Source of the DNA: Geomonas silvestris
Lineage (GTDB): Bacteria; Desulfobacterota; Desulfuromonadia; Geobacterales; Geobacteraceae
Assembly: GCF_014193515.1 (NCBI RefSeq)
Contig: NZ_BLXX01000001.1
Location: 620,001-684,000, forward strand
Direction of reading: 5' to 3'
Length of the DNA: 64,000 nucleotides
Part shown: in pieces, positions 1 to 15,103 of the stretch
Position numbering within the stretch: the first letter of the stretch is position 1
How the letters are laid out: every line of letters starts with the position of its first letter
The notes under the pieces: generated by a model
Seen by the model: only the letters and a program-made list of their open reading frames with translations
The model's database searches: none
What the model was told of the DNA's origin: nothing
Program-made: the position numbers and the translations under genes

Positions 1-1
1 C

Positions 2-2143
2 GTCGCCGATGCCGACGGCAGGGTCATCGCCACCGGGCTCAAGCAACCGCTCCCCATCAAGTACCGCGTCGGCGACCGCAAGTACTTCCGCGATGCGCTG
101 AGGACCGGCACGTTCACCGCAGGCGAGTACACCGTGAGCCGCGCCGCGCTGAAAAAGCCAACCCCGACCCTGCACTTCGCCCTCCCGGTCGCAGGGCCTA
201 AGGGGACGCCGGACCTGGTACTCTACGCGGCCTACGACCTGAACAGTTTCGGCAGGATCTTCGACGCCCAGGGACTCCCCCCCGGCGCCATCATCAACCT
301 GACCGACCACCGGGGGACCGTGCTCTACCGCTATTCGCGCCTGGGGGTAAGCGATCTGGTGGGGACAACGGACCACCCGGACCTGCGCCAGCATATGACC
401 GGCCGGGCCGAAGAGGGGGTCCTGTCCGGGGTCGGCCTCGATGGCGCCAAGCGGCATTTCGGCTTCAAGCGGCTGCGCCTGAACCCCAACGAGCCCCCCT
501 ACCTCTACATCCGGGTCTCCATCCCCGAGCAGGTTGCCACCTCCAACACCAGGAAAGCATTCGCGATCTCCCTGGCGCTCTTCGCGATCGCGGCGGTGGT
601 CACCTACTTCCTGACCCGGGTCATCGCCGGCCACTACATCGTGGGCCCGGTCCGGCGCCTGGTGAGCGCTTCCAGGTCGGTGCAGGAGGGGGATCTCACC
701 GCCCGCAGCGGCCTCCCCTACTCAAGCGACGAACTGGGACAGCTGGCCCGCTCGTTCGACGACATGGCAGCCTCACTGGACCAACGCATCCGGCAGATCA
801 GCCGCGCCGAATCCGAGAAGCATCGCCTGGCCTTCTACGACCCCCTCACCGAGCTGCCGAACCGGCGCCTGTTGCGCGACCGGCTGCAGATCGCCATGGT
901 GCGCAGCCGGCGCCAGAACACCGGCTTCGCCCTGGCCTACCTGGACATCGACAACTTCAAGCACATAAACGACAGCCTCGGGCACCAGGCGGGCGACCAG
1001 CTCCTGAAGATCGTGGCGGCGCGCTACCTGGCCGCGCTGCGCGAGGACGACTTCGTCTGCCGCCTGGGAGGCGACGAGTTCGCCGTGATCCTGCACGACA
1101 TCCAGCAGGAGAGCGCGGCAAGCAGCGTGATCCAGAAGCTGCTGGAGGCGAGTTCCGCCCCGATGGAGATCGAGGGGCGCGAACTGTTGATCACTGCCAG
1201 CATCGGCGTCGCCTTCTATCCCAAAGACGCCGAGGACACCGCAACCCTCGAGAAGGACGCCGACATCGCCCTCTACCACGCGAAGGACGAGGGGAAGAAC
1301 ACCTTCCGGATGTTCTGCGAGGAGCTCACCCGGTCCTCGCGCGAGCGGATCAACCTGATCCACGCCCTGCAGCACGCCCAGGACCGCAACGAACTTTTCC
1401 TGCACTATCAGCCCAAGATCGACAACAGCACCGGCAGGGTGACCGGCGTCGAGGCGCTTTTGCGCTGGAACAGCGCCGACCTGGGGAGCATCCCACCGGA
1501 CCGCTTCATCCCGCTGGCAGAGGAGAGCCGGCTGATCATCCCGATCGGCGAGTGGGTGATCCGGACCGCCTGTAGCCAGCAGGTAGCCTGGAAGCGGGTC
1601 GGCTGCGACCTGTCGATGGCGGTGAACATCTCGGCGGTGCAGCTCAAATCGCCGGGGCTGATTGAGACCATAGCGAGCGCCATCGAGGAGACCGGCATCG
1701 AAGCTGAGCAGCTTGAGCTGGAGCTGACCGAGAGCTGCCTGGTCGACCGCCCCGACGAGGTGATCAAGATCCTGGAGAAACTGCGCGAGCTGCGCTGCAA
1801 CATCGCCATCGACGACTTCGGCACCGGCTACTCCTCGCTGAGCTACCTGAAGAATTTCCCGGTGACGGTACTGAAGATCGACCGCTCGTTCGTGAAAGAC
1901 CTGACCAGCAACTCCAGTGACCGGGCCATCGCGCAGTCGGTGGTGAACCTGGCCAACAACCTGGACATGGTGACGGTGGCCGAGGGGGTGGAGCACCAGC
2001 ACCAGCAAACCGTGCTGGAGGAAATCGGCTGCAACTTCGTGCAGGGGTACCTGCACTGCGAACCGGTCCCGCCCGAGGAGATCCCGGCAATCGTGCGGGC
2101 CAGAAACCAGGGAAGCGATGAACCATTGATGATGAACAACTGA
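2..2143 (+). CDS. Cache-HAMP-GGDEF-EAL signalling protein (5' truncated by window edge)
   Basis: Membrane-bound cyclic dinucleotide enzyme. The reading frame is open to the first bases of the window, so the start lies upstream; the GTG at 134 is only an internal codon. About 180 residues of periplasmic Cache/PDC-like sensor come first, then one membrane helix (about 559-620), a HAMP segment, a GGDEF domain and an EAL domain. The GGDEF motif (about 1066-1080) is intact and is preceded five residues upstream by an RxxD inhibitory site. The EAL motif (in GVEALLRW) and DDFGTGYSS are also intact, so both synthesis and hydrolysis of c-di-GMP look possible. The Asp of the GHxxGD motif is present, as in ordinary diguanylate cyclases and unlike Hypr cGAMP synthases. 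It has no partner gene here. The family call is firm; the net activity cannot be read from sequence. Confidence 0.93.
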   Translation, partial: VADADGRVIATGLKQPLPIKYRVGDRKYFRDALRTGTFTAGEYTVSRAALKKPTPTLHFALPVAGPKGTPDLVLYAAYDLNSFGRIFDAQGLPPGAIINLTDHRGTVLYRYSRLGVSDLVGTTDHPDLRQHMTGRAEEGVLSGVGLDGAKRHFGFKRLRLNPNEPPYLYIRVSIPEQVATSNTRKAFAISLALFAIAAVVTYFLTRVIAGHYIVGPVRRLVSASRSVQEGDLTARSGLPYSSDELGQLARSFDDMAASLDQRIRQISRAESEKHRLAFYDPLTELPNRRLLRDRLQIAMVRSRRQNTGFALAYLDIDNFKHINDSLGHQAGDQLLKIVAARYLAALREDDFVCRLGGDEFAVILHDIQQESAASSVIQKLLEASSAPMEIEGRELLITASIGVAFYPKDAEDTATLEKDADIALYHAKDEGKNTFRMFCEELTRSSRERINLIHALQHAQDRNELFLHYQPKIDNSTGRVTGVEALLRWNSADLGSIPPDRFIPLAEESRLIIPIGEWVIRTACSQQVAWKRVGCDLSMAVNISAVQLKSPGLIETIASAIEETGIEAEQLELELTESCLVDRPDEVIKILEKLRELRCNIAIDDFGTGYSSLSYLKNFPVTVLKIDRSFVKDLTSNSSDRAIAQSVVNLANNLDMVTVAEGVEHQHQQTVLEEIGCNFVQGYLHCEPVPPEEIPAIVRARNQGSDEPLMMNN

Positions 2144-2149
2144 AAGCAA

Positions 2150-2242
2150 CAATGAACCAATGAACCAATGGACGATTGACAATTGAGGATTGAAAATTGA
2201 CAGTTGACCGTTGACGATTGACGACATTGTCGATTGACAATG
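2150..2242. repeat. degenerate RTTGACN heptamer repeat tract
   Basis: About 12 tandem 7-nt units of the type attgaca/gttgacc/attgacg, preceded by two copies of atgaacca. It is AT-rich against a GC-rich background. The same repeat family recurs near 30.7 kb and 30.9 kb. Comparable heptamer tracts are known from several bacterial phyla; no function is established. Confidence 0.8.
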
Positions 2243-2312
2243 TACGGGCAGGCGGGGCAGGACTGAGAGGACTGGGCACACCGGCCCTGACCAACACGCG
2301 GTGGCAGTTACC

Positions 2313-2345
2313 AGGGGAGATGCCGGAACGAACGGCATCTCCCCT
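2313..2345. terminator. perfect 13-bp hairpin, candidate terminator
   Basis: Arms aggggagatgccg and cggcatctcccct pair perfectly around a 7-nt loop. The following gtttcgtcc is only a weak T tract, so it may be an inefficient terminator of the GGDEF-EAL gene or another structural element. Confidence 0.5.
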
Positions 2346-2731
2346 GTTTCGTCCTAAACGCTTTCCCGTACGGAGGGCTTCAGCCGGCCCGGCCCAGAAG
2401 CGGGCACTGTGTCGGAACTGACACGCAGCGTTGCAAATCTGCAAATCGTTCTTTGCAGCTCAGCGAAATTGTCGCTCCACACCTCTGCGGCCCGTGCGGG
2501 CGCGACCGGTGCGGCGGCAGCGCCCCCGGCTCGCTGCGAGCGCAAAAAGTGGCGCAAAAGTAACCATCTGCGCGGTACCTGAGCACTTTTGACCAAGTTC
2601 CCCTCCCCCCTCGCTGCAGTAACTTCGGGGAGTTGGAGATCACTCCGGAGCTGGTACGAATTCTGCTAGGTAACCGGCATTGCACAAAAACGAGACCTGT
2701 CCCAGGTGAAATTTGACAAGGAAGTGACACC

Positions 2732-3160
2732 ATGGATACCTTCACTATCGACGTTGAACTCGAACACTACTATGACGACCGCATGGAGATGTCCAGCAGG
2801 GAGGCCGGCCGACGCTTCTACCTGCGCGCGGTGGCACGCTGGAGCGGTACGGAACTGGAGCGGTACCTGGACCGGGTAAAGGCGCACGCGGCCGCTTACT
2901 CGAGCCTGAACCACGTCCTGAGGTCCCCGGTGATGCACATCGAGACCCCCCTGTTTCTGTCCGGGCTGGTGCTGCTCCTGGCGAGCTTCGCGATGCTCTT
3001 CAGCGGCGAGTTGGGGACGCTGGTGGCGCTGGGCGCCTCGGCGGGTATGGTGGGAATGCTGCAGTGCCTGAAGAAACTCTCCCAGTACTGGCAGGAGTAC
3101 TCGGTACGCGAAGCGGTGTTCCGGGAACTTACCGAACTGTTGGATGAGCCGACGCTGTAA
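2732..3160 (+). CDS. two-helix membrane protein of unknown function
   Basis: 142 residues. The first 75 residues are charged and probably cytoplasmic (rich in Glu, Arg and Tyr). Two adjacent hydrophobic helices follow (roughly residues 78-97 and 99-112) with a short Gly-rich turn, then a charged C-terminal helix. The ATG follows an aaggaag ribosome site. The gene stands alone between the repeat-bearing gap and a convergent terminator. I do not recognise the family; a role at the inner membrane is all the sequence supports. Confidence 0.7.
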   Translation: MDTFTIDVELEHYYDDRMEMSSREAGRRFYLRAVARWSGTELERYLDRVKAHAAAYSSLNHVLRSPVMHIETPLFLSGLVLLLASFAMLFSGELGTLVALGASAGMVGMLQCLKKLSQYWQEYSVREAVFRELTELLDEPTL

Positions 3161-3194
3161 GGAGCAGGCGCTCCGTTAGGGTCGCAGAGGGAAA

Positions 3195-3229
3195 AGAAAA
3201 AGGCCACGTCGTTTGACGCGGCCTTTTCT
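3195..3229. terminator. bidirectional rho-independent terminator
   Basis: A GC-rich stem (ggccacgtcg against gacgcggcc with one mismatch) is flanked by A-rich sequence on the left and T-rich sequence on the right. It lies exactly between two convergent genes and can serve both. Confidence 0.8.
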
Positions 3230-3251
3230 TTTTGTGCTGGTCGCCGGTTCC

Positions 3252-3668
3252 TCAGGCGCACTCTTTGAGGTTGTTGCCGGCACTGAAACGGACGTAGTCG
3301 GCGTCGGCGATGGTGATGTCGTAGGTGAGCCAGTTCTGCAGGAAGCTCAGCATCTCCATGGGGAGGTTCCTCCAGACCTGGGTGAGGTCGTGCTCCATAG
3401 CGGCCACCTGCCCGGAGAAGTTCCTGTGGTATTCCAGGTGCTCCGCGTACCCCGCGTAGCCGATCTCCTCCATGTACTGCTCCTCGATCTTGAAGTGGTA
3501 CATGGCGTAGTCGAAGAACTCGTGCAGGGTGGCGGTAAGCCTCACCACGTCGGCGTCGGCAAGATAGTCGTCGTGAGCGCGGTTCAGCAGGTCCACCAGG
3601 TGCCGATGATGATTGTCGAACTGCTCAATTCCCAGGGTGAAGCACTCTTTCCATTCCAGTATCGGCAT
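3252..3668 (-). CDS. bacteriohemerythrin with one altered iron ligand
   Basis: 138-residue four-helix O2-binding protein of the hemerythrin family. The usual ligand motifs are visible in order: FDNHHRHL near the N-terminus, HFKIEEQYM, and EHLEYH. In the last helix the expected WLxxHIxxxD reads WLTYDITIAD, so the ligand His is Asp (codon 3318-3320, residue 117) while the bridging Asp is kept. The start at 3668 was chosen because aggagg lies five bases upstream; a GTG or ATG seven codons earlier would place the ribosome site inside the gene. It could still bind a di-iron centre with different chemistry, or have lost oxygen binding. It is monocistronic and shares the bidirectional terminator. 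Confidence 0.9.
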   Translation of the reverse strand: MPILEWKECFTLGIEQFDNHHRHLVDLLNRAHDDYLADADVVRLTATLHEFFDYAMYHFKIEEQYMEEIGYAGYAEHLEYHRNFSGQVAAMEHDLTQVWRNLPMEMLSFLQNWLTYDITIADADYVRFSAGNNLKECA

Positions 3669-4144
3669 GTCATCCTCCTGTTGCGGCACAAGTGATCAGG
3701 TTTTTCCAGGGTTATTGCTGCTTGGAGTATGCCAACGCTAAGTACGGTAAAACACAGCAGTCGAGGCCCGGGAAAGAGCCCTCGTGCTCAGACTCAGTAC
3801 GCAACTGTTCAAACTGTGCCACCCACTGTTACAACCTTTGAAACAAGGAAAGCTTCCGTCCGCACCACCTCCCCGAGACAGAGCTAATACAAAAGTTGTT
3901 CCAATGCCGATTCAGATTCATAAGTCAGGGGGCACGACAATAATGCCGCAGATTCGGACAGTTACGACCCAGAATAACCGGTAATGATTGGCGGGGAGGC
4001 GTCTTACCCAAAACGGGTGTCGGCTATCCTTACAGGTAAGCGTCGGCACTCTTGACAGTACCGCCTCTTCTTGAAACGGGCAGGAAAAAAGCGGGCCCGG
4101 AATGGAGTACCGGGTCCCGCTTTAGAGGCAATCGGCGCCGGCCT
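3669..4144. other. 476-nt gene-free gap
   Basis: Upstream region of the hemerythrin gene and downstream region of the PH-domain gene. Apart from the terminator near 4087-4123 I see no gene, repeat or clear promoter. The one open frame on the plus strand has no ribosome site and is rejected. Confidence 0.5.
4087..4123 (-). terminator. rho-independent terminator of the riboswitch unit
   Basis: Read on the minus strand, aaagcgggacccgg pairs with ccgggcccgctttt and is followed by a run of six T. It lies about 20 nt after the PH-domain gene. Confidence 0.8.
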
Positions 4145-4522
4145 TTACTTCAGCACCCGGCTTGCCAGTACCTTCTGTACTTCGTAGACGTTCACCTCCT
4201 TGGTGAACTTCTTCTCAATGGGGATGCTGTCGCTGCCGATCCAGATGCGCAGCTCCGCCTCCGGTTCGAAGGCGCCGCCGGTGCGCACGCCAAACTTGGT
4301 GATCTTACTGTAGGGGATGGAGAGGTACTCCAGCTGCCGCCCCGAGATCCCCTGGACGTCCACCAGAATCAGGCGCTTGTTGGTGAACAGGAACGTGTCC
4401 CGAAACACCACAAAGCCGACCTCGATGATCTCCCCGTCTGCCAACAGCGGTCCATAGGTGTTGTGAAACTTCTTGGTTTCCGCTGATCCCGTATTCTTGT
4501 CCACCCCTGAAAAAATTCCCAT
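4145..4522 (-). CDS. bacterial PH-domain protein (bPH_1 type)
   Basis: 125 residues, no signal peptide or membrane helix. The segment FRDTFLFTNKRLILVDVQG followed by SIPYSKITKFGV is the characteristic core of bacterial pleckstrin-homology domains of the PF08000 type. In such proteins the partly buried Thr-Asn-Lys-Arg strand is conserved. Bacterial PH proteins form rings or bind membranes and partners; no specific ligand can be named. It lies 90 nt downstream of the riboswitch-controlled membrane protein on the same strand, with no terminator between them. The two are therefore probably co-transcribed and regulated by cGAMP. The ribosome site (gggag, 11-12 bases upstream) is weak, which may mean translation depends on the upstream gene. 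Confidence 0.8.
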   Translation of the reverse strand: MGIFSGVDKNTGSAETKKFHNTYGPLLADGEIIEVGFVVFRDTFLFTNKRLILVDVQGISGRQLEYLSIPYSKITKFGVRTGGAFEPEAELRIWIGSDSIPIEKKFTKEVNVYEVQKVLASRVLK

Positions 4523-4612
4523 ACGGCTCGTGCTCCCGACCTCAAGATGACGTGCTGTCGAGCGTATCGGCGCGCGGCCCGGAAAACTTTAGCCCCGGTC
4601 CTCGGCGCGGGT

Positions 4613-5473
4613 TCACGAGGCGAGCGCCACCGCCTGTACCTCGCTTGCCAGCACGATCCGTTCGTTCTCCAGGGCCACCGGGTGCGCGCTGTGTTCCAGG
4701 CGCTCGTAGAGGTGCAAGTACTTGGCGACCTCGCCGGCCTGCCCGGTTTTGCGGCCGTGGTACTTGCCGGTCTGGACGAAGACGGCGGTGACGGCGCGCT
4801 CGTCGTAGATGGCAAAATCGAAGGAGCTGTTTACCTCGGAGCCACCGATGTCGATGGTGGAGGGGAGTTCGTCGCGGAAGGCGAGCCGGACGTCGATGTT
4901 GTCCCGGTACTGGGCCAGCAGCACCTTTTGGACCTCGGGATCGCCCAGGTCTTCGCGGCTGGTGATGAAAATGCGGGTGATTTCGATGCCGCGGGTCACG
5001 GCACGCAGGTTGGCCTGGTAGAAGTTGATGAGCGAGCCGCGGCTGAGCCACCCCGGGGAGAGCGGGTCCACCGCCTTGATCCGGTGCAGGGCCTGGTCGG
5101 CGAGCCGCGCCCCCTCGAGGTAGAAGTCCATCTCGTCCAGCGGGATGAAGCCCTGCTGCAACAGCGCAATATTTTTCAGCGTCCCGGCGACCAGCTCTTG
5201 GGCCTTAGCCTGGCACTCCGGATCGCTTATCTGGGCCAGCGCAAAGGGGATGGCGTGCACCTGCTGGTACTGGGTGAAGAGTTCCGCCTTGGTCTTACCG
5301 ATGTCCTCGCGCACCAGGTAGGTCACCAGGGAGAGCAGGATCCCGATCCCGAAGGTGAGGTAGGCTGCCATCTCGTTGTGCAGCACCATGTGGAAGAAGA
5401 TGGCCAGGCCGGAGCCCGCCAAAAACTCGATGAATACCGCCATATCGTGAATCTTTTTATTCATGTTGGTCAT
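4613..5473 (-). CDS. membrane protein of unknown function controlled by a cGAMP riboswitch
   Basis: 286 residues. Two hydrophobic helices near the N-terminus (about residues 11-28 and 35-53) are followed by a helical, probably cytoplasmic region. A C-terminal alpha/beta-looking domain (about 160-286) has strands such as GIEITRIFIT and FDFAIYDERAV. That domain resembles degenerate phospholipase D-fold regions lacking HKD motifs, but this is only an impression. The start at 5473 is fixed by aggaggtttc directly before the ATG; the frame continues upstream without coding character. It is the first gene behind the riboswitch and promoter, and its leader is about 350 nt. I do not recognise a function; its regulation suggests a cGAMP-linked surface or membrane role. 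Confidence 0.75.
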   Translation of the reverse strand: MTNMNKKIHDMAVFIEFLAGSGLAIFFHMVLHNEMAAYLTFGIGILLSLVTYLVREDIGKTKAELFTQYQQVHAIPFALAQISDPECQAKAQELVAGTLKNIALLQQGFIPLDEMDFYLEGARLADQALHRIKAVDPLSPGWLSRGSLINFYQANLRAVTRGIEITRIFITSREDLGDPEVQKVLLAQYRDNIDVRLAFRDELPSTIDIGGSEVNSSFDFAIYDERAVTAVFVQTGKYHGRKTGQAGEVAKYLHLYERLEHSAHPVALENERIVLASEVQAVALAS

Positions 5474-5682
5474 GAAACCTCCTCTTGTGGGCAACTGCAT
5501 GTCCGGCCGCCGCCAGCGGCGCGACCGGAAAAATTTGACGTTGGGAATCGGTGCTTGGCGCACCAGTTGGGAATTGCGAGATGGACAACCTTGGCTGCGG
5601 CATCGGTGCGACTCTCCCGGGCTTGCCGAGGGCCGGGGAAAGTGCGTTGCGGCGTAGTTGCCGGAAGATGATCTACACCAGG

Positions 5683-5735
5683 AAAAAAAATAGCCGGGTC
5701 CCGAAATGAATGTGGACATTTCGGCGACCCGGCTA
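5683..5735 (-). terminator. riboswitch expression-platform terminator
   Basis: On the minus strand agccgggtcgccgaaatg pairs with catttcgggacccggct (one bulge) and is followed by a run of eight T. The 5' arm is the 3' part of the riboswitch aptamer, so aptamer and terminator are mutually exclusive. Ligand binding should prevent termination, making it an ON switch. Confidence 0.85.
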
Positions 5736-5800
5736 TCTCGAAGAGACCCTTAGGCTTTCCGTCCCACCCTCGCGGATGGTTTAGTATTGTCGTCTATCGT
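5716..5800 (-). promoter_or_regulatory. GEMM-Ib riboswitch aptamer (3',3'-cGAMP class)
   Basis: Minus-strand RNA contains the GEMM-I core: acaatactaaacc, a ccatccgcgagggtgg hairpin, gacggaaagcc, and the second helix aagggtctc...gagatagccggg followed by tcgcc. The base three positions before aaacc, equivalent to G20 in the c-di-GMP aptamer, is A, the hallmark of the cGAMP-preferring GEMM-Ib subclass known from Geobacter. As I remember it, the sequence is almost the same as the crystallised Geobacter cGAMP aptamer. It sits between a consensus promoter and a terminator whose stem it overlaps. Confidence 0.93.
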
Positions 5801-5828
5801 GCTGCGCTTTTGTTGCGTTGTTCCGGGA

Positions 5829-5857
5829 AAAATAGCGGAAACCAATCTAGCTGTCAA
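5829..5857 (-). promoter_or_regulatory. sigma-70 promoter for the riboswitch transcript
   Basis: On the minus strand TTGACA, a 17-nt spacer and TATTTT. Transcription would start near 5822, about 20 nt before the aptamer, leaving room for the whole aptamer and terminator. Confidence 0.8.
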
Positions 5858-6057
5858 GTTAAATGTACGTTACACACACTGCAACTAAGTGTAATCACAA
5901 CAGTTTACCCTATCTTTCTCTGAGAAGCGTCATTAACTCCCATGCTGCCTGCCGGGGCGGCCGGAACAGACCCGCAGCGGGTCTCCCTCCAATGATTCCG
6001 GCCCCCGGCAGCTCCCGGAAAGGAGCGCAGGCTCCCCTTCCGGGGTCTATGTGAAGC
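5858..6057. other. 200-nt gap with a long hairpin after the DUF5666 gene
   Basis: Contains an imperfect 14-bp stem (gctcccggaaaggagc against gctccccttccgggg, about 6011-6045). It could end minus-strand transcripts of the lipoprotein gene although no T run follows. A second stem (ggccggaat with gttccggcc) encloses a short cccgctgcggg hairpin. No coding potential seen. Confidence 0.45.
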
Positions 6058-7437
6058 CTATTTGCCCAGTTCTATCTCCACCTGTTGGGCAGCGGCTAAG
6101 GTGTTGCTCGAGTTCCAGCGCGCCTTCACGATGGTGACCCCCAGGGTAACCTGCGCGAAGAAGGCGCTCTGGCCGACGGCCTGCTCGGCCGAGTCGGTGC
6201 TGATCCTGAACTCGGTCCCTGAAGTGGTCAGCACGGAGAGACCGAGGATGCTCAAGGTTCCGGCTGCGGCATCCTTCGCGCTCACCGGTCCCTGGATGAA
6301 GGTCTGCGAGCTGGCGCCCTTGACCACGATGCGCCGGGCGACCAGGTTGCCGTCGCGATCGGCGATGGCGCGAACCTCAACGTGCTGGCCGTTAGCGAGC
6401 GGCCCGCCGTCGATCCGGGTGAATGCGTTGATGGTGACGGTTTTCCCCACCACCGAGAAGCTGGTGGAGCTCAAAGCGGAGAGATCCGCCTCGATTTTGA
6501 TGTTGCTGCGGAACGAGATTTTGCTGGTGACCAGGGCCCCGCTGCCGTTGAGCGTCCCTTCGGCCTCCAGCTGCACGCCGACGGCGAAGTCGGTCTTGAG
6601 CCCCCCTTCAAAGATGGTGGAGCTGCTGGTCAGTACCTCTTGACCGTTGATGACGAAGTCGTCGACGCTGCCGGAGGTGACGATACCTTCCACCTCGACC
6701 TTTTCGCCGGCACCGGCCAACCTGTCTTCCAGTTTCACCAGGGTGGCGGTGAGGGCGCCGGCGACCGGCGCCGCGTTGGAGCGCACCTCGACCAGCGATC
6801 CGATGCCGGCGCCGGCGGGAAGAGACCCGGTAACGGTCAGGATGGCGGCACCTCCCGGAGTGAGGCTGAGGCCGAAGCTGCCGCTCCCGAGAGCCAGCAC
6901 GTACCCCTTGATCTCGAAGTCGTTGCTGGAGGTGATTTTAGCGACCCTGGTCGCCCTGAGGCCCCCCTGGTCGTCCGGGAAGCCGTGCACCTCGACCCGG
7001 TCCCCGATCTGGAAATTGGCGGCGGAGAAGACCTTGACGGTGTTGTCGTCGTTGAGCCTTGTGACGTTGTCCTCGATGTGCACGGTCTGCCCCATGACGG
7101 TGATGGTGTTGGCACCAAGGGCGCTTATGTTACCTTCAAGCACGTCGTGCGCCTCGACCTCACGCGCCACGCCGAGGCGGGTGCTGTTATCGGCGCTGCC
7201 GCGCACCTTCACCACCATGCCGACCTTGAGCTGGCTTGGGGTACCCGGGTTGTCGTCGATCTTGATGGCCGCATTGTCTATGTTGTACTCGATACCGTTG
7301 ACTATGACGCTGCCAAGGGCGGTGATCACCCCCTTGCTGACCCCTTGGGCGGGTGCACTGGAGCCGGACCCACCACCGCAGGCTGAGACCAACAGGACAG
7401 AACTTAAGAGAAGCGACAGGCGAACGAGAGTATTCAT
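6058..7437 (-). CDS. DUF5666 repeat lipoprotein
   Basis: 459 residues. The N-terminus is a lipoprotein signal: basic MNTLVR, a hydrophobic core, and LVSAC as lipobox, followed by a GGGSGSS linker. The mature part is made of about five or six repeated all-beta units of the DUF5666 type (VxGxIxALGxxxxxVxGxxV with VGMxVxVxG). It is therefore probably an outer-membrane-anchored beta-rich protein of unknown function. The start at 7437 is supported by aaggaga six bases before the ATG. It lies alone on its transcript, upstream of the riboswitch unit on the same strand but separated by a hairpin. Such proteins are common in Geobacterales; no enzymatic motif is visible. Confidence 0.85.
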   Translation of the reverse strand: MNTLVRLSLLLSSVLLVSACGGGSGSSAPAQGVSKGVITALGSVIVNGIEYNIDNAAIKIDDNPGTPSQLKVGMVVKVRGSADNSTRLGVAREVEAHDVLEGNISALGANTITVMGQTVHIEDNVTRLNDDNTVKVFSAANFQIGDRVEVHGFPDDQGGLRATRVAKITSSNDFEIKGYVLALGSGSFGLSLTPGGAAILTVTGSLPAGAGIGSLVEVRSNAAPVAGALTATLVKLEDRLAGAGEKVEVEGIVTSGSVDDFVINGQEVLTSSSTIFEGGLKTDFAVGVQLEAEGTLNGSGALVTSKISFRSNIKIEADLSALSSTSFSVVGKTVTINAFTRIDGGPLANGQHVEVRAIADRDGNLVARRIVVKGASSQTFIQGPVSAKDAAAGTLSILGLSVLTTSGTEFRISTDSAEQAVGQSAFFAQVTLGVTIVKARWNSSNTLAAAQQVEIELGK

Positions 7438-7938
7438 GACGTGTCTCCTTTTTCCCATGGAATTGTAGTTTTCGCTGAAATCAAGTTTGCTGGCCGACGG
7501 GGTTACCGAATCGGCCGGCGAAATCCGTTCGCGGGGTAACGTCACTTACTCCCAAGGTAATGGATTTCACACCGGGAGTTCCGGTAGCTGTCGAACCTAG
7601 AGCAACCGGCGCGCCAAATGTAAACGATCCGCAAAGTTTTTGTATTCTCGGGTAGTTACTGAAGAGGAGGATATTTCATGAGGGGGTAGGAGGCTGCCAA
7701 GAAATCGAGGGAGGTTCCAAGATTTTGGCTTTTTAAAAGGTTCTTCAGGGGATTTGCCAGGGATGAAAAGGAGTTCAGCAGCACTGCTGGTGGCATGACG
7801 TCCTCACCTTTGCGAAGGGGAGACAGAGGGGATTTTAAACTCTTCCCGCTTTTGATGGCCAAGGCGTACGTGCGAAGGACAAAGTCGAATCCCGCCTGGT
7901 GGCGGCTGACCCGTAAGAGATCAGCCGCCCCCGGGGAA
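7438..7938. other. 501-nt gap with dispersed repeat-like sequence and a hairpin
   Basis: The region 7640-7860 has lower GC and contains a cctttgcgaagggg block followed by gacagaggggatttt, a common intergenic repeat type. A related block (ctttgcaaaagggggg) lies near 9810. Near 7901-7929 a 9-bp stem (ggcggctga/tcagccgcc) just downstream of the thioredoxin gene may act as its terminator. A 68-codon minus-strand frame crossing the repeat is judged non-coding. Confidence 0.5.
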
Positions 7939-8385
7939 TCAGTGCTCGCCCGTCATGTCACGGAACCAGGCGACTACCGCTTCGGCCGAGCGGGAACCGG
8001 CGAGCTGGGCTTCGGACTTGCCGTGCTGCAAAAGGTGCAAGACCGGGATGCCGCGCACCGCGAAGCGGGAGGCAAGTCCGGGACTGGTATCGGTATTTAT
8101 TTGCAGGACCGCAGCCTTGCCGGCCAGCAGTTCGGCAGCTTTTCGCACCGCCGGTGCGAATGAGGTGCAGTGCGGTCACCAAGGGGCCCAGAACTCGGCG
8201 ATGATGGGACCGCTGTAACCGGCGAGGAAGGCATCGAAGTTTTCGTCGTTTACCTGCTGCGGCTCGAAATAAAGCGGCGGGAGCGTGGCGCGGCAGTTGC
8301 CGCAGTGCCCGGCAATCCCCTGTTTCTCGCCGGGGACCCGGTTCGCGCTGCCGCAGGACCTGCAGGTGATCAGATAGCTGGACAT
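7939..8385 (-). CDS. trxC: thioredoxin-2 (TrxC type), probable selenoprotein with in-frame UGA
   Basis: 148 residues if the UGA at 8176-8178 is read as selenocysteine. The N-terminal 35 residues form the TrxC zinc ribbon (CRSCG and GHCGNC). The thioredoxin fold follows: IIAEFWAPW, then UGA, then PHCTSFAP, aligning with WAPWCGPCRNFAP of E. coli TrxC. The UGA thus sits exactly at the first redox cysteine, giving U-P-H-C. The frame continues in the same phase to FDVR-like elements and the cis-Pro loop (RGIPVLHLL), ending at a normal stop. A perfect 8-bp hairpin begins 15 nt after the UGA. The start at 8385 has aaggag seven bases upstream. Alternatives are a nonsense mutation or a sequencing error, less likely given position and hairpin. 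Conventional annotation would split it into two fragments. Confidence 0.85.
8142..8160 (-). promoter_or_regulatory. bacterial SECIS-like hairpin
   Basis: Minus-strand ttcgcacc-ggc-ggtgcgaa, a perfect 8-bp stem with a three-base loop starting with G. The apical loop is 23 nt after the UGA codon, within the usual window for bacterial SECIS elements, and a G at the loop start is the main conserved feature. Confidence 0.75.
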
Positions 8386-8606
8386 GGCATATCTCCTTGT
8401 CAAAGGGTTTCGGACCCTGGGCTGTCAGCCATTGTACCAGTTTTCCGGGAACCGCACGAGCAGCGCTCCCATCCCTTTCCGGCAGGGCCGGCACTTTACC
8501 TTGGCAAGGGCGATTCGGCGTTTCACATTTTTTGCTTTTCTGTTATGGTAGGAAATTGCTTCGCCCGGCGAGGCTAATTAACGGAAAGTCCGGAGGTTTT
8601 CAATCA

Positions 8607-9431
8607 ATGTTTAGATGCCGAACCCTGCTCCTTGTACTCTGCGCGTTCCTGCTGGCGCTCACCTGCGCCCAGGCTGCCCCCACCCCCGCCAAAGCCGGCG
8701 CTCCTGCGGCCAGCCAGGAGGTGAGCGTTCCGATACTGCTGTACCATCGTTTCGGCCCCACCGTCGCCGACGGCATGACCATCAAGACCTCCGTCTTCGA
8801 GGAGCACCTGAAGTACCTCAGGGACAATGGCTACAAGGTGATTCCGCTGCGCACCCTGGTGGATTACTACCTGAAGAAGGGCCCGGCGCCGGCACCGAAA
8901 TCGGTTGTGATCGTCGAGGACGACGCGCACAAATCGGTCTACAGCGACATGCTCCCGCTGGCGAAGAAGTACAACGTGCCGGTCACCGTTTTCGTGTACC
9001 CGTCCGCGATCTCCAACGCGAAGTACGCCATGACCTACGACCAGTTGCGCACCCTGAAGAAAAACGGCTTCGACATCCAGTCGCACACCTTCTGGCACCC
9101 CAACTTCAAGCGCGACAAGAAGAAGATGACCCCGGCCGAGTACGAGAAGTCCGTCACCACGCAGCTGAAGAAATCCAAGGAGCGCCTGGAGAAGGAACTG
9201 GGCGGTACGGTGGATCTTTTGGCCTGGCCGTTCGGGATCTACGACGACTACCTCTTGAAGCGCGCCGGCGAGGTAGGCTACAAGGCGACCTTCACCATCG
9301 AGGCACACCACGCCTCGCCGCGCGACAACGTGATGAAGCTGCCGCGCTACCTGTTGATCAACGCCGACCAGGGGAAAAACTTCGCACGCATCCTGGAAGG
9401 GTCCGCGCCCAAACGCAACGTGGTCTACTAA
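8607..9431 (+). CDS. secreted polysaccharide deacetylase (NodB family)
   Basis: 274 residues. A clear Sec signal peptide (basic MFRCR, hydrophobic core, cut after AQA) is followed by a carbohydrate esterase 4 domain. Recognisable elements are PILLYHRF, the Asp-containing motif 1 in the variant form VIVEDDAH (usually TFDDG), the metal-binding SHTFWHP, and LAWPFGIYDD. It probably removes N-acetyl groups from an exported or cell-wall polysaccharide in the periplasm. The start at 8607 gives the signal peptide and has cggagg about ten bases upstream. An upstream in-frame extension to about 8397 has no signal character. The Gly-to-Ala change in motif 1 is unusual but occurs in some family members. 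Confidence 0.87.
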   Translation: MFRCRTLLLVLCAFLLALTCAQAAPTPAKAGAPAASQEVSVPILLYHRFGPTVADGMTIKTSVFEEHLKYLRDNGYKVIPLRTLVDYYLKKGPAPAPKSVVIVEDDAHKSVYSDMLPLAKKYNVPVTVFVYPSAISNAKYAMTYDQLRTLKKNGFDIQSHTFWHPNFKRDKKKMTPAEYEKSVTTQLKKSKERLEKELGGTVDLLAWPFGIYDDYLLKRAGEVGYKATFTIEAHHASPRDNVMKLPRYLLINADQGKNFARILEGSAPKRNVVY

Positions 9432-9496
9432 GAGAGACGGGTTGAGGTTAAGGTTAAGAAAGGCAGAACCTGTAGAACCGGTGGAGAGCTTCTGAG

Positions 9497-9679
9497 ATGG
9501 CAAGCGAGCTGCACGAGAACAAGAAGTACCCTTGCCCTGACTGCACCTTCTGCCAGTGGTGCTCGGACGACCGCTGCAGGAAGTGCCGCAGCGGGGCCAA
9601 GTGCCCCCGCAAGCTCTCTCAGGCCGAACAGATTGAGCTGTACGAGAAGCTGAACCAGCCGCAAAAGCCCAAAGAGTAA
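9497..9679 (+). CDS. small cysteine-rich protein, unknown
   Basis: 60 residues with eight cysteines between residues 13 and 36, spaced CPDC-FCQWC-RCRKC-C, followed by a charged, Pro-rich tail. The pattern suggests two zinc sites or a zinc-ribbon-like fold. Family unknown to me. A ggagag ribosome site precedes the ATG. The gene lies 65 nt after the deacetylase on the same strand and is followed by a strong terminator, so the two may be co-transcribed. Confidence 0.75.
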   Translation: MASELHENKKYPCPDCTFCQWCSDDRCRKCRSGAKCPRKLSQAEQIELYEKLNQPQKPKE

Positions 9680-9694
9680 GATAATCGCAGGAAC

Positions 9695-9737
9695 GAAAAA
9701 AGGAGACGCCCGGCACCGCCGGCGTCTCCTTTTTTTA
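9695..9737. terminator. bidirectional rho-independent terminator
   Basis: Six A, then ggagacgcc paired with ggcgtctcc around a ccg-rich loop, then seven T. Ends the small Cys-rich gene and could also stop minus-strand transcripts. Confidence 0.88.
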
Positions 9738-9915
9738 TTGGCCTCGCATGAGTTTGAACGTGGAAAGTAGTTCCACGAAGCGCAGCAGCAGAACTCGCGT
9801 CCCCCACTTTGCAAAAGGGGGGAGCGAGAGAACAGCCCCTTCGCCGACTAAAGTCACTCCTCAGTGATTGCAAAGGAACCTTTACGCGAAGCATTCCTTT
9901 CAGGCAACGCCCTTC

Positions 9916-10512
9916 TTAAGTCTCCTTCCCCTGTCGCACCCGCACCTTCTGCACCTTGAGGCGCACCTTTTCTCCGGTCAGCTCCCGGTACAGCTCGGCC
10001 AGGTAGCGCACGGTGACGATCTTGTGCAGATAGGCCTGGGTGAGCCGGTAGAGTTGCCGGCGCAACAGCGAGGGGCGCGCACTTCCCAATAGCAGCGGAC
10101 AGTAGTCGGAAAGCTGCACGACGACCCGCACGCCACCCGGCTCGGGCTCGGCGAAGAGCGAGAAGAGGCCGCGATCGCACTCCTTGGGCTGCACCAGGAT
10201 CCCGCCGTTGATGCGCAAGTGCACCTCACCCACCCCTTCCCCCTTCGGGTACTCGGGGGGCTGGAAACTCAGGAGCGCAATCCTGCTCCCGAAGAGCCGG
10301 AACTGGACGCCCTCCTCGTTCTGCGCCGGTCGGATCAGCGAGAAGGTCCAGTCCTGCACCAGGCGCAGATAGCGTTCGAACAGCAAGCGGGGGGTCACCG
10401 GACACAGCAGGGGATCCGGCAGCACCAGCCACTGCACCGAATAGACCGAGGCATCCGGCTCGAGGATCTGCTGGCAGGCCACTTCCCGCGCGGTATCCCG
10501 TTTTCCCCACAT
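9916..10512 (-). CDS. conserved-looking cytoplasmic protein, unknown
   Basis: 198 residues, no signal peptide or membrane helix. It is rich in beta-like segments (VQFRLFGSRIALLSF, VRVVVQLSDYCPLLL) and ends with a basic tail. Its ATG (aggggga four bases upstream) is nine nucleotides after the stop of the rRNA methyltransferase, so the two form an operon. I do not recognise a family. Context hints at an RNA or translation-linked role, but nothing in the sequence demonstrates it. Confidence 0.75.
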   Translation of the reverse strand: MWGKRDTAREVACQQILEPDASVYSVQWLVLPDPLLCPVTPRLLFERYLRLVQDWTFSLIRPAQNEEGVQFRLFGSRIALLSFQPPEYPKGEGVGEVHLRINGGILVQPKECDRGLFSLFAEPEPGGVRVVVQLSDYCPLLLGSARPSLLRRQLYRLTQAYLHKIVTVRYLAELYRELTGEKVRLKVQKVRVRQGKET

Positions 10513-10521
10513 CGCGTCCCC

Positions 10522-11727
10522 CTACAGCGTCCCTTTCACCGAGATCGCGTATTTCAGGTAGCGCCCCTCCGGGAAGGTCACCGGATAGGGGAAATCTTCC
10601 GGCTGTCCGAAGAGCTGGACCACCTGAAGTGAGTGCCCCGCCTGGAGTGCGCCGCGGCGCAGTTCCTTAAGGTAGTCAGCCAGGTCGACCTTCTGGTGAT
10701 TGGAGCAGGTGATCAGCAGCCCGCCCTCCTTGAGCAGTTTCAGCGCTGCCGCCACCAGGTCCGAGGTGCCGCCGCGGGTCGTGAAGCGGCTCTTCGAGGT
10801 GGTGGAAAACGAAGGAGGGTCCATGACGATGACGTCGAAGACCCGCTTGGTGCGCCCAAGCTCCTCGAGCACCGCCAGGCAGTCCCCCTGCAGGAACTCG
10901 TGGCGCTTGGGGTTCATGTGGTTCACGCTGAAGTTGCTGCGGGCTATATCGAGATAGCTCGGGGAGGCGTCGACGCTGGTCACCTGGCTCGCACCGGCGG
11001 ACGCGGCGGCCACCGAAAAGGCGCCGGTGTAGCAGAAGAGGTTCAAGACCCGCTTCCCCGCCACGCGCGCCATCAGGTCGCGACGGTTGTTGCGCTGGTC
11101 CAGAAAAAGCCCCGTGTTCAGGCCGCGTTCCAGGCTCACCTGGAAGTTCAGGCCGTTTTCCTTTACCGTGAGCGGCTCGGGCGCGGCGCTCCCCGCCAAG
11201 AGGCGCCCGTACTTCTTGGAATCGCTCTCCGCCTCCAGTTCCCGGGTCTTCTGGGGCCGGGCCTTCTCGTAGATCCCCGCCGGGTCGAGAAGCTCCTGGA
11301 GCGCCTGGGTGATGAGCTTCAGGTGCCTGCGCCAGGCGCCGCAGTAAAGCTGCACCATGAGGTACTCGCCGTAGCGGTCCACGGTGAACCCCGGGAGCCC
11401 GTCACCTTCGGCATTGACGAGGCGGTAGGCCGTGGTTTCCTCGAGCTGGGCGTGGTTCAGGCGCAGGGCGATGGCCGCCTGCAGCCGCGTCTTGATCCAG
11501 CCGCGGTCGAGGGTCATGCGCTGGCGCGCCAGGACCCGCGCCACGATCCGCTCGCCGGGATCAAGGAGCGCCGTGGCCAGAAAACGCCCGGAGGGGTCGG
11601 TCAGCTCGATCAGGTCACCCGCCTGCCCTGCCGGCCATTTCTTGGTGTAGGCGTCGGCGATGATCCAGGGGTGGCCGAGTTCCAGCATCCGGACCGATTC
11701 GGAGCCGACGACGAAGCTTGGTGCCAT
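10522..11727 (-). CDS. RlmI-like class I SAM-dependent rRNA methyltransferase with PUA domain
   Basis: 401 residues. The N-terminal PUA RNA-binding domain (about 1-85, including GHPWIIADAY) is followed by a central beta domain and a Rossmann methyltransferase domain. SAM-binding motif I is NLFCYTGAFSVAAA, the acidic loop is SVDAS, and the catalytic MDPPSF motif is intact. This arrangement matches the RlmI/YccW family, which methylates C5 of a 23S rRNA cytosine. The exact target base cannot be read from sequence. The start at 11727 (aagga nine bases upstream) removes a short non-homologous extension. It is the first gene of a two-gene operon. Confidence 0.88.
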   Translation of the reverse strand: MAPSFVVGSESVRMLELGHPWIIADAYTKKWPAGQAGDLIELTDPSGRFLATALLDPGERIVARVLARQRMTLDRGWIKTRLQAAIALRLNHAQLEETTAYRLVNAEGDGLPGFTVDRYGEYLMVQLYCGAWRRHLKLITQALQELLDPAGIYEKARPQKTRELEAESDSKKYGRLLAGSAAPEPLTVKENGLNFQVSLERGLNTGLFLDQRNNRRDLMARVAGKRVLNLFCYTGAFSVAAASAGASQVTSVDASPSYLDIARSNFSVNHMNPKRHEFLQGDCLAVLEELGRTKRVFDVIVMDPPSFSTTSKSRFTTRGGTSDLVAAALKLLKEGGLLITCSNHQKVDLADYLKELRRGALQAGHSLQVVQLFGQPEDFPYPVTFPEGRYLKYAISVKGTL

Positions 11728-11821
11728 AAAACCAGTTCCTTTTATCGTTGCGTTGCAGTTCACCCGCCCGAAGGGGTGATGATCGTGTGTTTCGCCTGTT
11801 GCGTCCTAAGTCCATAAATAA

Positions 11822-11878
11822 AGGGGCGGCGGCTTTGGGTACTCCGGGATGTCCCGAAGAGCCGAAAACCCCGCCCCC
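11822..11878 (-). terminator. long hairpin between two minus-strand genes
   Basis: On the minus strand ggggcggggttttcggct pairs imperfectly with agccgccgcccct, enclosing a small cggga/tcccg hairpin, and is followed by ttattt. Probably terminates transcription of the 127-residue protein gene upstream. Confidence 0.5.
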
Positions 11879-11899
11879 GTGTCTTTGCTGCTCGGGTGC

Positions 11900-12283
11900 C
11901 TAGTGGGTGGCCTGCGACTTGCCGCCCTGCTCCGCCGCCAGCTCCTGACGGGCCTGATCCATCGCTTCCATCTGCTTGAGCTGCTCGCCCAGCCAGTAGT
12001 GCAGCTCGCGTGCGGTCTGGTAGTTGAGCACGACGCCGGTGGTGACGTGACGCACCAGGCTGCGGCCCAGATCTTCCGGCTCAACCTCGGTCTCCGGACC
12101 GATGGTGCCGGCCGGGGTGATCTGGTGCGAGATGGAATTGGGGAGCGGCTGGCGCTCGAGGTAGAAGTTCATCACCAGTTCGCCGCGCGGCGAAAGACCA
12201 CCGTGGGCCCCGTTGACGTAGGTCGGACTGTAGTCGTAGGTGAAGACGTATTTAAAGGTCATCTCCGGCTTGTTGTTCGACAT
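11900..12283 (-). CDS. small cytoplasmic protein, unknown (DUF3467-like appearance)
   Basis: 127 residues. An N-terminal beta-rich region (FKYVFTYDYSPTYVNGAHGGL, LVMNFYLER) is followed by a helical C-terminus (ARELHYWLGEQLKQMEAMDQ). The strand-strand-helix layout and the YVNG segment resemble DUF3467 proteins, but the match is by eye only. The start at 12283 has aaggaga eight bases upstream. It appears monocistronic with its own hairpin terminator. Function unknown. Confidence 0.72.
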   Translation of the reverse strand: MSNNKPEMTFKYVFTYDYSPTYVNGAHGGLSPRGELVMNFYLERQPLPNSISHQITPAGTIGPETEVEPEDLGRSLVRHVTTGVVLNYQTARELHYWLGEQLKQMEAMDQARQELAAEQGGKSQATH

Positions 12284-12396
12284 GGTTCGCTCTCCTTTTC
12301 CATAAACGTAAATTCGCAACCCATGCCTTATAGCATGGAGGCGGGTTCAAGGCAAACGGGGATTTATATAAATGTTAGTGAAAGCTTGATCAAAAA

Positions 12397-14025
12397 TCAG
12401 TGCACCGTGTGATGGGTCTTGGAGAGGTAGTAGTCGTAGTTCCCCTCGTAGAGCCGCATCTCGCCGTGGTCCACCTCGATGACCCGATCGACCAAAAGGC
12501 GCAGGAAGTGCCGGTCGTGGCTCACCAGGATGACGGTTCCCGAGAAGTTGGCCAGGGCGTCCAGGAGGATCTCGCGGCTGCGGATATCCAGGTGGTTGGT
12601 CGGCTCGTCCAGCACCAGGAAGTTGACCGGCCGGGCCAAAAGGGTCGCCAGGACCACGCGGCTTTTCTCCCCGCCGGAGAGCATCTCGACCCGCTTGTCC
12701 ACGTCGTCGCCCTGGAACAGGAAGGATCCCAGCAAGTTGCGGATCACCCCGATGGTCGCAGTGGGCATCACGTCCTGCAGGGTCTCGAAGATGGTCTTCT
12801 TCGGGTCGAGAACTTCCATGGCGTGCTGGCTGAAGTAGCCGAGCTCCACGTTGGCGCCCAAGGTGACGTTCCCCGCGGTCGGCTCGGTCTGCCCGGCCAG
12901 TACCTTGAGGAAGGTGGACTTGCCCGCACCGTTCACCCCGACCACGGCGATCTTGCTCAGGCGCTTGATGACGCCGGTTACCCCCGAGAAGATCGGGTGC
13001 TCGCTACCGTCCGGGTTCTGCCAGCTCTTGGCCAGCTTATCCATGGCCACCACGTCGTCGCCGCTTCGGGGCGGCTCGTTGAAGACGAAGCGGACCACCT
13101 TCTCTTCGGGCGGGATCTCGATGCGCTCGATCTTGTCGATCTTCTTCACCCGGGACTGCACCTGGGCCGCGTGCGAGGCGCGGGCGGCGAAACGGGCGAT
13201 GAAATCCTCTTCCTTGGCAAGCATCTCCTGCTGGCGCTTGTAGCTCGCCAAAAGCTGCTCGCGGCGGATGTCGCGCTCCTTCTCGTAGAAGTCGTAGTTC
13301 CCGCCGTAGGTGGTGATGGTCTTGTTGGCCACCTCGATGATGCGCCCGACGACCCGGTTCATGAAATCGCGGTCATGGCTGGTCATCAGGAGCGCCCCCT
13401 TGAACTCGCTGGCGATCCACTCCTCGAGCCAGATGATCGACTCCACGTCCAGGTGGTTGGTCGGCTCGTCCAAGAGGAGCACGTCGGGACAGAGGGTGAG
13501 GATCCCGGCTAGGGCTATCCTCATGCGCCAGCCGCCCGAGAAGGATTCCACCGGGTTGTGGAAGCGGTCCGGGCCGATCCCCAGGCCGGTCAGCACTTCT
13601 TGGGCGCGCGAGTCGAGGTCGTAGCCGCCGCGGTGCTCGAACTCCTCCATGGCGACGCCGTAGCGCTCCAAAAGCGCAGCCATGTCGTCGTCGGACATCG
13701 GCTCGCCCATCTGCTCCTCCATCTTCTTCAGCTCGCCGGCCAGGCGCACCGTCTCGGCCGATACCGCCATCACCTCCTCGAGCGCCGAACGCCCCTTCAT
13801 CTCCCCAACGGTCTGGGAGAAGTAGCCGACGCTGGTCTTCTTGGCGAGGGTGATATCACCGGCATCGACCTCCTCCTCGCCGGTGATGATGCGGAACAGC
13901 GAGGTCTTCCCCGCGCCGTTGGGGCCGACCAGCCCGGTGCGGGTGCCGGGAAGAATCTGGAAGCTGGCTTCGCGGAACAGGACCTGCGAGCCGTACTGCT
14001 TGGTGATGTTGGACAGATGAATCAT
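12397..14025 (-). CDS. ABC-F family ATPase (ribosome-associated)
   Basis: 542 residues, two ABC ATPase domains in one chain and no membrane domain, as in the Uup/EttA/YbiT group. Walker A motifs are GPNGAGKT and GVNGAGKS. Signatures are FSGGW and LSGGE. Both Walker B boxes read LDEPTNHLD. The inter-domain linker (about residues 235-320) is long, helical and rich in charged residues, as expected for the arm that reaches the ribosomal P-site tRNA. Such proteins relieve stalled ribosomes or protect against antibiotics; which applies here is not evident. The start at 14025 has aggaga eight bases upstream. The leader contains a structured inverted repeat that may regulate it. Confidence 0.92.
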   Translation of the reverse strand: MIHLSNITKQYGSQVLFREASFQILPGTRTGLVGPNGAGKTSLFRIITGEEEVDAGDITLAKKTSVGYFSQTVGEMKGRSALEEVMAVSAETVRLAGELKKMEEQMGEPMSDDDMAALLERYGVAMEEFEHRGGYDLDSRAQEVLTGLGIGPDRFHNPVESFSGGWRMRIALAGILTLCPDVLLLDEPTNHLDVESIIWLEEWIASEFKGALLMTSHDRDFMNRVVGRIIEVANKTITTYGGNYDFYEKERDIRREQLLASYKRQQEMLAKEEDFIARFAARASHAAQVQSRVKKIDKIERIEIPPEEKVVRFVFNEPPRSGDDVVAMDKLAKSWQNPDGSEHPIFSGVTGVIKRLSKIAVVGVNGAGKSTFLKVLAGQTEPTAGNVTLGANVELGYFSQHAMEVLDPKKTIFETLQDVMPTATIGVIRNLLGSFLFQGDDVDKRVEMLSGGEKSRVVLATLLARPVNFLVLDEPTNHLDIRSREILLDALANFSGTVILVSHDRHFLRLLVDRVIEVDHGEMRLYEGNYDYYLSKTHHTVH

Positions 14026-14381
14026 GAACGGGTCTCCTACCTTGGCTAAGTCACAAGCGTTCAGCGTTAGCATGAACCGCCCGAAGCTTACAACTTAATT
14101 TTTGCACAGGGTTTTACGAGCTACGGGCGGGGCGAAGACTGGGAGAACTTCGCCCTATCAGGGAGAAGGTGCGAACGGCACACAGCGCCCTGTGCAAGAG
14201 TTGTGCAGCCGCCGCTGAGCGGTTAGCTGGCAGCGTGCCGGCGGGGCAACCGGTCGCGCCATAACCTATTGAATTCAGTACAGGAAACTATTGACGTGAA
14301 ATAATCTTGTAGGAGAGATGTTTCGGCGTTCTTTATGCTGGGGAAGTTCTCGCAGGCAACTGTCTCATGAGGAGGGCTGTC
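14026..14381. other. 356-nt divergent intergenic region
   Basis: Separates the ABC-F gene (minus) from a small membrane protein gene (plus). It holds the inverted-repeat structure described separately. The rest has no gene that I can support. Confidence 0.5.
14102..14197 (-). promoter_or_regulatory. structured leader upstream of the ABC-F gene
   Basis: A perfect 10-bp inverted repeat (ttgcacaggg at 14102-14111, ccctgtgcaa at 14188-14197) encloses a second stem (gggcgaag 14130-14137 with cttcgccc 14148-14155). On the minus strand the outer 3' arm is followed by aaaatt. It lies 77 nt before the ABC-F start. Attenuator-like leaders are known for some ABC-F genes, but the regulatory role here is inferred. 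Confidence 0.45.
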
Positions 14382-14759
14382 ATGACAAACGTGTTCGAGG
14401 GCTTCATGCTGACTATCATCCTGATGCTGGCGCTGACCATCCTGCCGCGCATCATCTGGGCCTATCTCAAGGTGGAGGAATCCTGGCAGCATCACGACCT
14501 GGAGGCCCTGCACGAGCTGCAGCACGAGCGCAACTCCTGGCTGCTGCGCCACTTCAGCTGCGGTACGGCCGCCGTCATTCTGCTCTGGATCGTGGAAGCG
14601 AGACCGGCCCTGGAAATTTCGCACCGGGTGACCGTCGCCGTCGGCGTCTACGCCGGGTGCTGCCTGGTCTTCGCGGCGCTCGAGTGTCTGATCTGGTTCA
14701 GGATCCACCGGTACCTGTCCCTGGTCCCGGTAAAAGTGTCCAAGCGCGATCAGCGCTGA
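14382..14759 (+). CDS. small three-helix membrane protein, unknown
   Basis: 125 residues with three hydrophobic helices (about residues 8-25, 57-73 and 86-106) separated by a charged His/Glu-rich loop. The start at 14382 follows aggagg six bases upstream; an in-frame ATG five codons earlier overlaps that ribosome site and is rejected. Its last 10 bases overlap the 3' end of a convergent small membrane-protein gene. No family recognised. Confidence 0.7.
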   Translation: MTNVFEGFMLTIILMLALTILPRIIWAYLKVEESWQHHDLEALHELQHERNSWLLRHFSCGTAAVILLWIVEARPALEISHRVTVAVGVYAGCCLVFAALECLIWFRIHRYLSLVPVKVSKRDQR

Positions 14760-14992: not shown

Positions 14993-15027
14993 TGTGCGAT
15001 TACCAGCCTGCCCGCTCAGGGCTAATC

Positions 15028-15098: not shown

Positions 15099-15103
15099 TG
15101 CCT

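Follow-up and report, generated by a model that had tools for sequence, protein, structure and literature searches.

We analyzed a stretch of 64,000 nucleotides from Geomonas silvestris, hereafter the window, and found on its minus strand a thioredoxin reading frame that runs from 8385 to 7939 and encodes 148 residues if an internal TGA is counted as selenocysteine (Sec). This TGA (8178-8176) is the sole internal stop and occupies the position of the first catalytic Cys (FWAPW-U-PHC), and the frame terminates with a second TGA at 7941-7939. The original prediction of a frame interrupted only at 8176-8178, followed by thioredoxin motifs in the same phase, was borne out, as was the expected product of 148 residues, which we recovered by conceptual translation with Sec at the TGA. 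The strand had been left unstated and is the minus strand; the plus strand at 7939-8385 gives no thioredoxin reading. As had been foreseen for standard gene callers, the list of open reading frames (ORFs) cuts the gene in two, with a 75-aa frame at 8403-8176 and a 69-aa frame at 8148-7939. The features of the locus, all on the minus strand, are as follows.

7939..8385, minus: predicted Sec-thioredoxin gene, TrxC-like (translation; Thioredoxin Pfam, 85.2 bits)
8176..8178, minus: in-frame TGA, residue 70, in WUPHC (89 order-level relatives: 77 TGA, 12 Cys)
8142..8160, minus: SECIS-like hairpin, stem 8160-8153 with 8149-8142, loop GGC at 8152-8150 (pair conservation and covariation)
8167..8169, minus: putative resolving Cys 73 of UPHC (Cys in 94/94 aligned genes)
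8293..8364, minus: N-terminal zinc-ribbon motif, Cys 8, 11, 28, and 31 (Cys in 92, 91, 93, and 93 of 94 genes, respectively)
8044..8046, minus: Pro 114, which we take from family knowledge to be the thioredoxin cis-proline (Pro in 94/94)
8393..8398, minus: AAGGAG, probable ribosome-binding site (sequence inspection)
7901..7929, minus: 9-bp perfect inverted repeat just 3' of the gene, without a T run (sequence; missing from the terminator scan list)

The divergent upstream neighbor is a polysaccharide deacetylase gene (8607-9428), and the downstream neighbor encodes a DUF5666 protein. A PUA-SAM methyltransferase and an ABC-F protein are encoded farther away in the window; methyltransferase-like and ABC-F-like frames, judged by eye, also lie near the gene in a second genome of the genus (G004). 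Membership of the window gene in a stress cluster was ruled out, with no hsp20, dnaJ, cbpM, degP, or z226 match at window positions 1-20000 or in 18 genus loci of ~3.4 kb each. The sole match of a window-wide Rfam scan was a c-di-GMP-I riboswitch aptamer at 5720-5795 on the minus strand (43.5 bits). It is unrelated to the thioredoxin gene and sits directly upstream of a minus-strand 368-aa frame (5719-4613) that has no Pfam match.

Codon 70 and the downstream hairpin among relatives

Within the genus, the gene is found in 18/19 genomes, with the internal TGA in every one; the exception, G015, is 85% complete. All 19 genomes also encode a separate, stop-free thioredoxin with 32-35% identity. 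The gene occurs in 38 of 48 genomes of the family and, at an E value of 1e-20 or better, in 84 of 141 genomes of the order, which yielded 89 genes once 7 that had been fetched twice (identical around codon 70) were dropped from the raw 96. An alignment of homologs, which had been suggested along with the original prediction to see whether others carry UGA or Cys at this position, gave the following distribution: codon 70 is TGA in 77 genes and TGC or TGT in 12, and no other codon is used. The class adds three TGA genes and two distant Cys genes (89/277 class genomes match at 1e-25). UPHC is present in 80/80 aligned TGA genes. Among the clade's 12 Cys genes, 11 read CPHC and one reads CTHC, and the two distant Cys genes have CGYC and CGPC. 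One TGA gene, L065 (G022:C76:5122-5547), contains two extra in-frame stops (TAA at 39 and TGA at 81), adjoins HtrA-like and z226 genes, and looks like a decaying, broken copy.

Downstream of the UGA lies the hairpin TTCGCACC-GGC-GGTGCGAA, with a perfect 8-bp stem and a GGC loop. The hairpin had been predicted correctly, down to its three-base loop with G first, except for its spacing: the 23 nt then given is the distance from the UGA to the loop (8152), whereas the stem begins after 15 nt (8160). When the protein sequence was held fixed, 5205/200000 synonymous redraws (2.6%) had 8/8 pairs at this place, and 1670/20000 (8.4%) had any hairpin with at least 8 pairs within 60 nt. By itself, a single hairpin is thus mildly improbable and constitutes weak evidence. 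RNAfold gave a nonsignificant z score of -0.32 for the 61 nt around the hairpin, with a minimum-energy fold that differs from it, and did not favor the hairpin in longer contexts either. The Rfam model SECIS_1 had no match in the genome, a miss that is uninformative because the model was silent in all 14 control genomes as well.

The strong evidence for a putative SECIS element is comparative and consists of the codon 70 counts, the conservation of pairs, and covariation. All 8 pairs are formed in 70 of the 77 order-level TGA genes, 7 pairs in six, and 6 pairs in one, and the loop starts with G in 77/77; the three class-level TGA genes each have 8/8 pairs. Among the 12 Cys genes, two have 8 pairs, three have 7, and seven have 3 to 5. 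Loss of the hairpin is therefore not uniform among Cys genes, as 5/12 keep 7 or 8 of the 8 pairs. Synonymous constraint across the 77 TGA genes was strongest at codons 77, 81, and 79 (ranks 1 to 3 of the 138 scored), all inside the hairpin, where codons 80 and 78 ranked sixth and seventh; rank four fell on codon 75, just ahead of the stem, and rank five on codon 2. Across 21 distinct hairpins, three pairs showed double-sided changes (C-G to U-A, U-A to C-G, and U-A to A-U), amounting to 7 cells. Out of 500 shuffles, 11 reached three pairs, one reached 7 cells, and none reached the covariation score, and structures slid along the alignment scored much worse than the actual hairpin. The count of further pair types was no better than in shuffles (276/500).

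Selenocysteine machinery and decoding of the UGA

The genome (5.1 Mb, 36 contigs, 99.99% complete) encodes the full set of selA, selB, selC, and selD that the original prediction had proposed to look for. SelA, SelB, SelD, and tRNA-Sec scored 603.6, 382.7, 366.1, and 78.0 bits, respectively, each above its family cutoff, so the absence of selB or selC, named in advance as evidence against Sec decoding, does not apply here. Furthermore, the SelD gene of this genome (L130, G000:C11:84133-85047) has an in-frame TGA of its own near the N terminus (VQAAG-U-AAK); 9 nt past it lies a hairpin of 8 pairs that shares the GGC loop of the thioredoxin gene. Within this genome, the TGA-containing SelD gene serves as an internal positive control for the decoding of Sec.

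Across the order, SelB and tRNA-Sec were both missing from 3/72 genomes with a TGA gene versus 13/69 others (Fisher p 0.007, uncorrected for relatedness or completeness). One of the three, G031, has SelA and is probably just incomplete. In the other two, G081 (96% complete) and G104 (92%), a TGA copy is present, and SelA, SelB, and tRNA-Sec were not found. The TGA gene of G081 is on a 255-kb contig and that of G104 on a 3.5-kb contig, which could be misbinned. These two genomes count against a simple rule by which a TGA gene implies Sec machinery, and their copies (L112/L156 in G081 and L093 in G104) are either stranded selenoprotein genes or the product of incomplete or mixed assemblies. SelA, SelB, and tRNA-Sec were also not found in two of the 12 Cys-gene genomes (G088 and G091), as would be expected once a genome no longer needs Sec. 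In a further genome, a tRNA-Sec gene lies ~44 nt past the Sec-thioredoxin match, on the opposite strand (L138, G076:C1:59750-60315).

Because the machinery is complete, codon 70 is held only by TGA or Cys, and the hairpin is kept in TGA genes (8/8 pairs in 70/77) and mostly lost in Cys genes (8/8 in 2/12), the UGA at codon 70 is almost certainly read as Sec, in agreement with the original prediction. Readthrough by near-cognate suppression, which would place one of the standard amino acids Trp, Cys, or Arg at the UGA, is very improbable, since the sole replacement observed at codon 70 is Cys (12/89, or 14/94 with the outgroup), the genome holds the full Sec machinery, and a structured element lies in register past the UGA. 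We give practically no credence to a pseudogene or a sequencing error, with the TGA as a true stop or a miscalled TGC or TGT: the broken L065 and the copies of G081 and G104 without detectable Sec machinery would fit such a reading, but it is refuted at the family level by 77 independent copies with TGA at the exact codon, just one of which has other stops in its aligned part, and by conservation of the protein on both sides of the TGA. In particular, a miscalled TGC or TGT at 8176-8178 is very unlikely because the same codon is TGA in 77 of the 89 relatives, and the stops elsewhere in homologs that the original prediction had set out as a warning sign were confined to L065 among the 77.

Fold and likely function of the product

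The product matched the Pfam thioredoxin family PF00085 with 85.2 bits against a cutoff of 23.5. Its score with Zn_ribbon_Thio2 was 26.6 bits against a cutoff of 27.1, with the four ribbon Cys kept in 91-93 of 94 genes, and its score with the NCBIfam TrxC equivalog NF008229 was 88.9 against 125 bits. Trp 66, Cys 73, and Pro 114 are present in 94/94 genes. An AlphaFold2 model, built on an 8-sequence alignment with Cys in place of Sec, had a pLDDT of 88.2 and a pTM of 0.81. When this model was used in a fold search of the PDB, ranks 1-8 were Trx2 chains. The full-length rmsd was 7-9 Å, so the placement of the zinc ribbon in the model is unsettled, and the thioredoxin domain alone superimposed at 1.3-1.8 Å on most of the single-domain thioredoxins listed.

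The active site of TrxC is CGPC. The window protein shares with Trx2/TrxC (PDB 2ppt, 7d6l, 3p2a, and 7ysi) a putative N-terminal four-Cys zinc ribbon followed by a thioredoxin domain, and these proteins account for its eight best fold matches. It differs from them in having UPHC rather than CGPC, in an identity of 30-33%, and in falling below the TrxC cutoff. Since the NF008229 cutoff was missed, we call the product TrxC-like, with a putative zinc ribbon and a Trx2-like fold, and short of TrxC proper. The original assignment to a zinc-ribbon TrxC is thus retained for the four-Cys motif and the fold and is not supported at the level of the TrxC equivalog and Pfam zinc-ribbon cutoffs.

We propose that the gene encodes a cytoplasmic zinc-ribbon thioredoxin of the Trx2/TrxC-like type, with U70 of the WUPHC motif as the nucleophile. 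SelB and Sec-tRNA-Sec would bind the hairpin just past the UGA and insert Sec, and a lack of selenium or SelB would end translation after 69 residues. U70 would then attack target disulfides or other oxidized thiols, Cys 73 would resolve the selenenylsulfide, and thioredoxin reductase would recharge the protein. Disulfide reduction is the likely job by analogy, with the partner, substrate, and redox direction drawn from family knowledge.

The redox direction could also be the reverse, with the UPHC protein acting as an oxidant or isomerase. Its site resembles the CPHC of DsbA, which is more oxidizing than CGPC, and the surrounding residues are well kept (Pro 71 and His 72 in 91 and 92 of 94 genes, and Glu 64 in 92/94). 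In addition, protein disulfide-isomerases came first in a PDB sequence search (1.7e-30), in which the Trx2 entry 7ysi was fifth (5.5e-23). We nevertheless consider this role unlikely. No signal peptide is evident and the N terminus is a predicted zinc ribbon, which makes a reducing environment in the cytoplasm the likelier one; moreover, the nearest folds are those of Trx2, and Sec lowers the redox potential, which would offset the effect of the Pro-His dipeptide.

Whichever its direction, the window gene belongs to an already known type, the Sec-thioredoxins of Geobacter-like bacteria. In the Sec-thioredoxin of Kim et al. (2015), reportedly from Treponema denticola, Sec is said to be the attacking residue; likened by description, the window protein would share this feature. 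Thioredoxin is listed as a selenoprotein in Geobacter metallireducens, G. sulfurreducens, and G. 'uraniumreducens', with 7 genes in total, in the table of Zhang et al. 2006 (PMC1794560); this table gives no sequences, and the likeness to the window protein, Sec in a UxxC site, is one of description. The relevant passages of that article mention neither the zinc ribbon nor UPHC (PMC1794560). A 2005 recoding survey places thioredoxin among known selenoproteins and records a thiol-disulfide isomerase/thioredoxin-like match in G. sulfurreducens (PMC1242214). Passages of two reviews, of 2022 and 2026, treat Sec-thioredoxin as a characterized family, citing Kim et al. 2015 (PMC9312934, PMC13188914), and the latter states that UxxC forms fit high substrate concentrations (PMC13188914). 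The original description of a zinc ribbon combined with UPHC as unusual was therefore too strong, given UPHC in 80/80 TGA genes and the Geobacter entries already present in the 2006 table (PMC1794560). A literature search, mostly at the level of titles and abstracts, found no zinc-ribbon UPHC subtype as such, no fossil hairpins, and no heat-shock linkage of the sister subfamily described below; among the listed titles on Sec with TrxC or zinc, or on Sec with heat-shock operons, neither a Sec-TrxC nor a heat-shock cluster with a Sec-thioredoxin is mentioned.

Sec-Cys exchange and a sister subfamily beyond the window

When codon 70 was masked, a quick tree of the 94 proteins over 141 columns needed 4 Sec/Cys changes, compared with a mean of 13.3 after shuffling (0/500 as low); its starred branches alone force 3 changes. 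With the two distant Cys genes as the root, we infer from this tree one gain of Sec followed by three replacements by Cys, a direction that depends on the root and on the 141 columns. The first replacement corresponds to a group of 10 genes (support 93, not starred) that retain at most 7 of the 8 hairpin pairs. The second and third are single genes, L084 (G118) and L089 (G049), in which all 8 pairs are intact; both look like recent changes from Sec to Cys and are candidates for carrying a fossil SECIS. The Sec form would accordingly have been present early in the order-level clade, Cys would have taken over about three times, and the hairpin would have decayed afterwards.

The tree also delineates a sister subfamily (support 93) of 19 genes, 18 with TGA and one with TGC, that have Thr before the Sec position (FWAPT-U-PHC, with FWSPT in one). 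We inspected wide neighborhoods (L147-L161) of 14 of these FWAPT genes and of one W-type gene. In 6/14 FWAPT neighborhoods, the Sec-thioredoxin gene closes the complete order hsp20-hsp20-hsp20-DnaJ-MerR_2 (CbpM-like)-HtrA protease-membrane protein. Three more have hsp20 genes nearby, giving 9/14, and the remaining five (L153, L154, L156, L158, and L160) showed no hsp20, with just 2.7 kb upstream available for L153. Genes for hsp20 also occur near the W-type copy of G054 (L136 = L161), which is adjoined by a KefB-like frame (judged by eye), and near the distant Cys gene L134.

Between G054 (family f3) and G079 (family f4), 14,539 bp are shared at 100% and 1,950 bp at 99.9% identity (~16.5 kb). 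This identity points to a segment that passed recently from one family to the other; contamination between the assemblies is less likely because both genes lie on contigs of >790 kb. A plasmid search covering 857 thioredoxin-bearing records found no close copy, the best place in each having <60% identity. The FWAPT subfamily, unlike the window gene, resembles the transmissible locus of stress tolerance, a mobile island that carries a thioredoxin along with DegP and small heat-shock proteins. The combination that marks this locus, trx and small heat-shock genes sharing a segment that moves horizontally, is matched by hsp20 in 9/14 FWAPT neighborhoods and by the 14.5 kb at 100% between f3 and f4. 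The FWAPT clusters differ in having DnaJ, MerR_2/CbpM-like, and sigma-70 genes; further modules associated with the transmissible locus are ClpK/ClpG, FtsH, YfdX, HdeD, and KefB. The text of the stress-tolerance-island paper contains no word starting with 'selen' or 'Geobacter'.

We tentatively raise the possibility, doubtful as it is, that the FWAPT gene is a mobile Sec-thioredoxin at the end of a moving hsp20-DnaJ-CbpM-HtrA proteostasis cluster. Such a cluster would also enter bacteria that do not decode Sec (G081 and G104). There the gene would be stranded, yielding a truncated zinc ribbon, and only a change of the UGA to a Cys codon could rescue it, as in L089 with its intact SECIS.

For the window gene, our results settle the selenoprotein reading of a gene that the standard ORF list splits in two. 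Its relatives form a clean natural experiment on Sec-Cys exchange, with one protein, one hairpin, and about three apparent replacements, two of which still have the hairpin. If the mobile FWAPT subfamily is real, it would make it possible to test if the movement of stress genes from one bacterium to another is limited by recoding; if the proposed course of events is true, the ability to decode Sec would act on a spreading stress island both as a barrier and as a selective filter.
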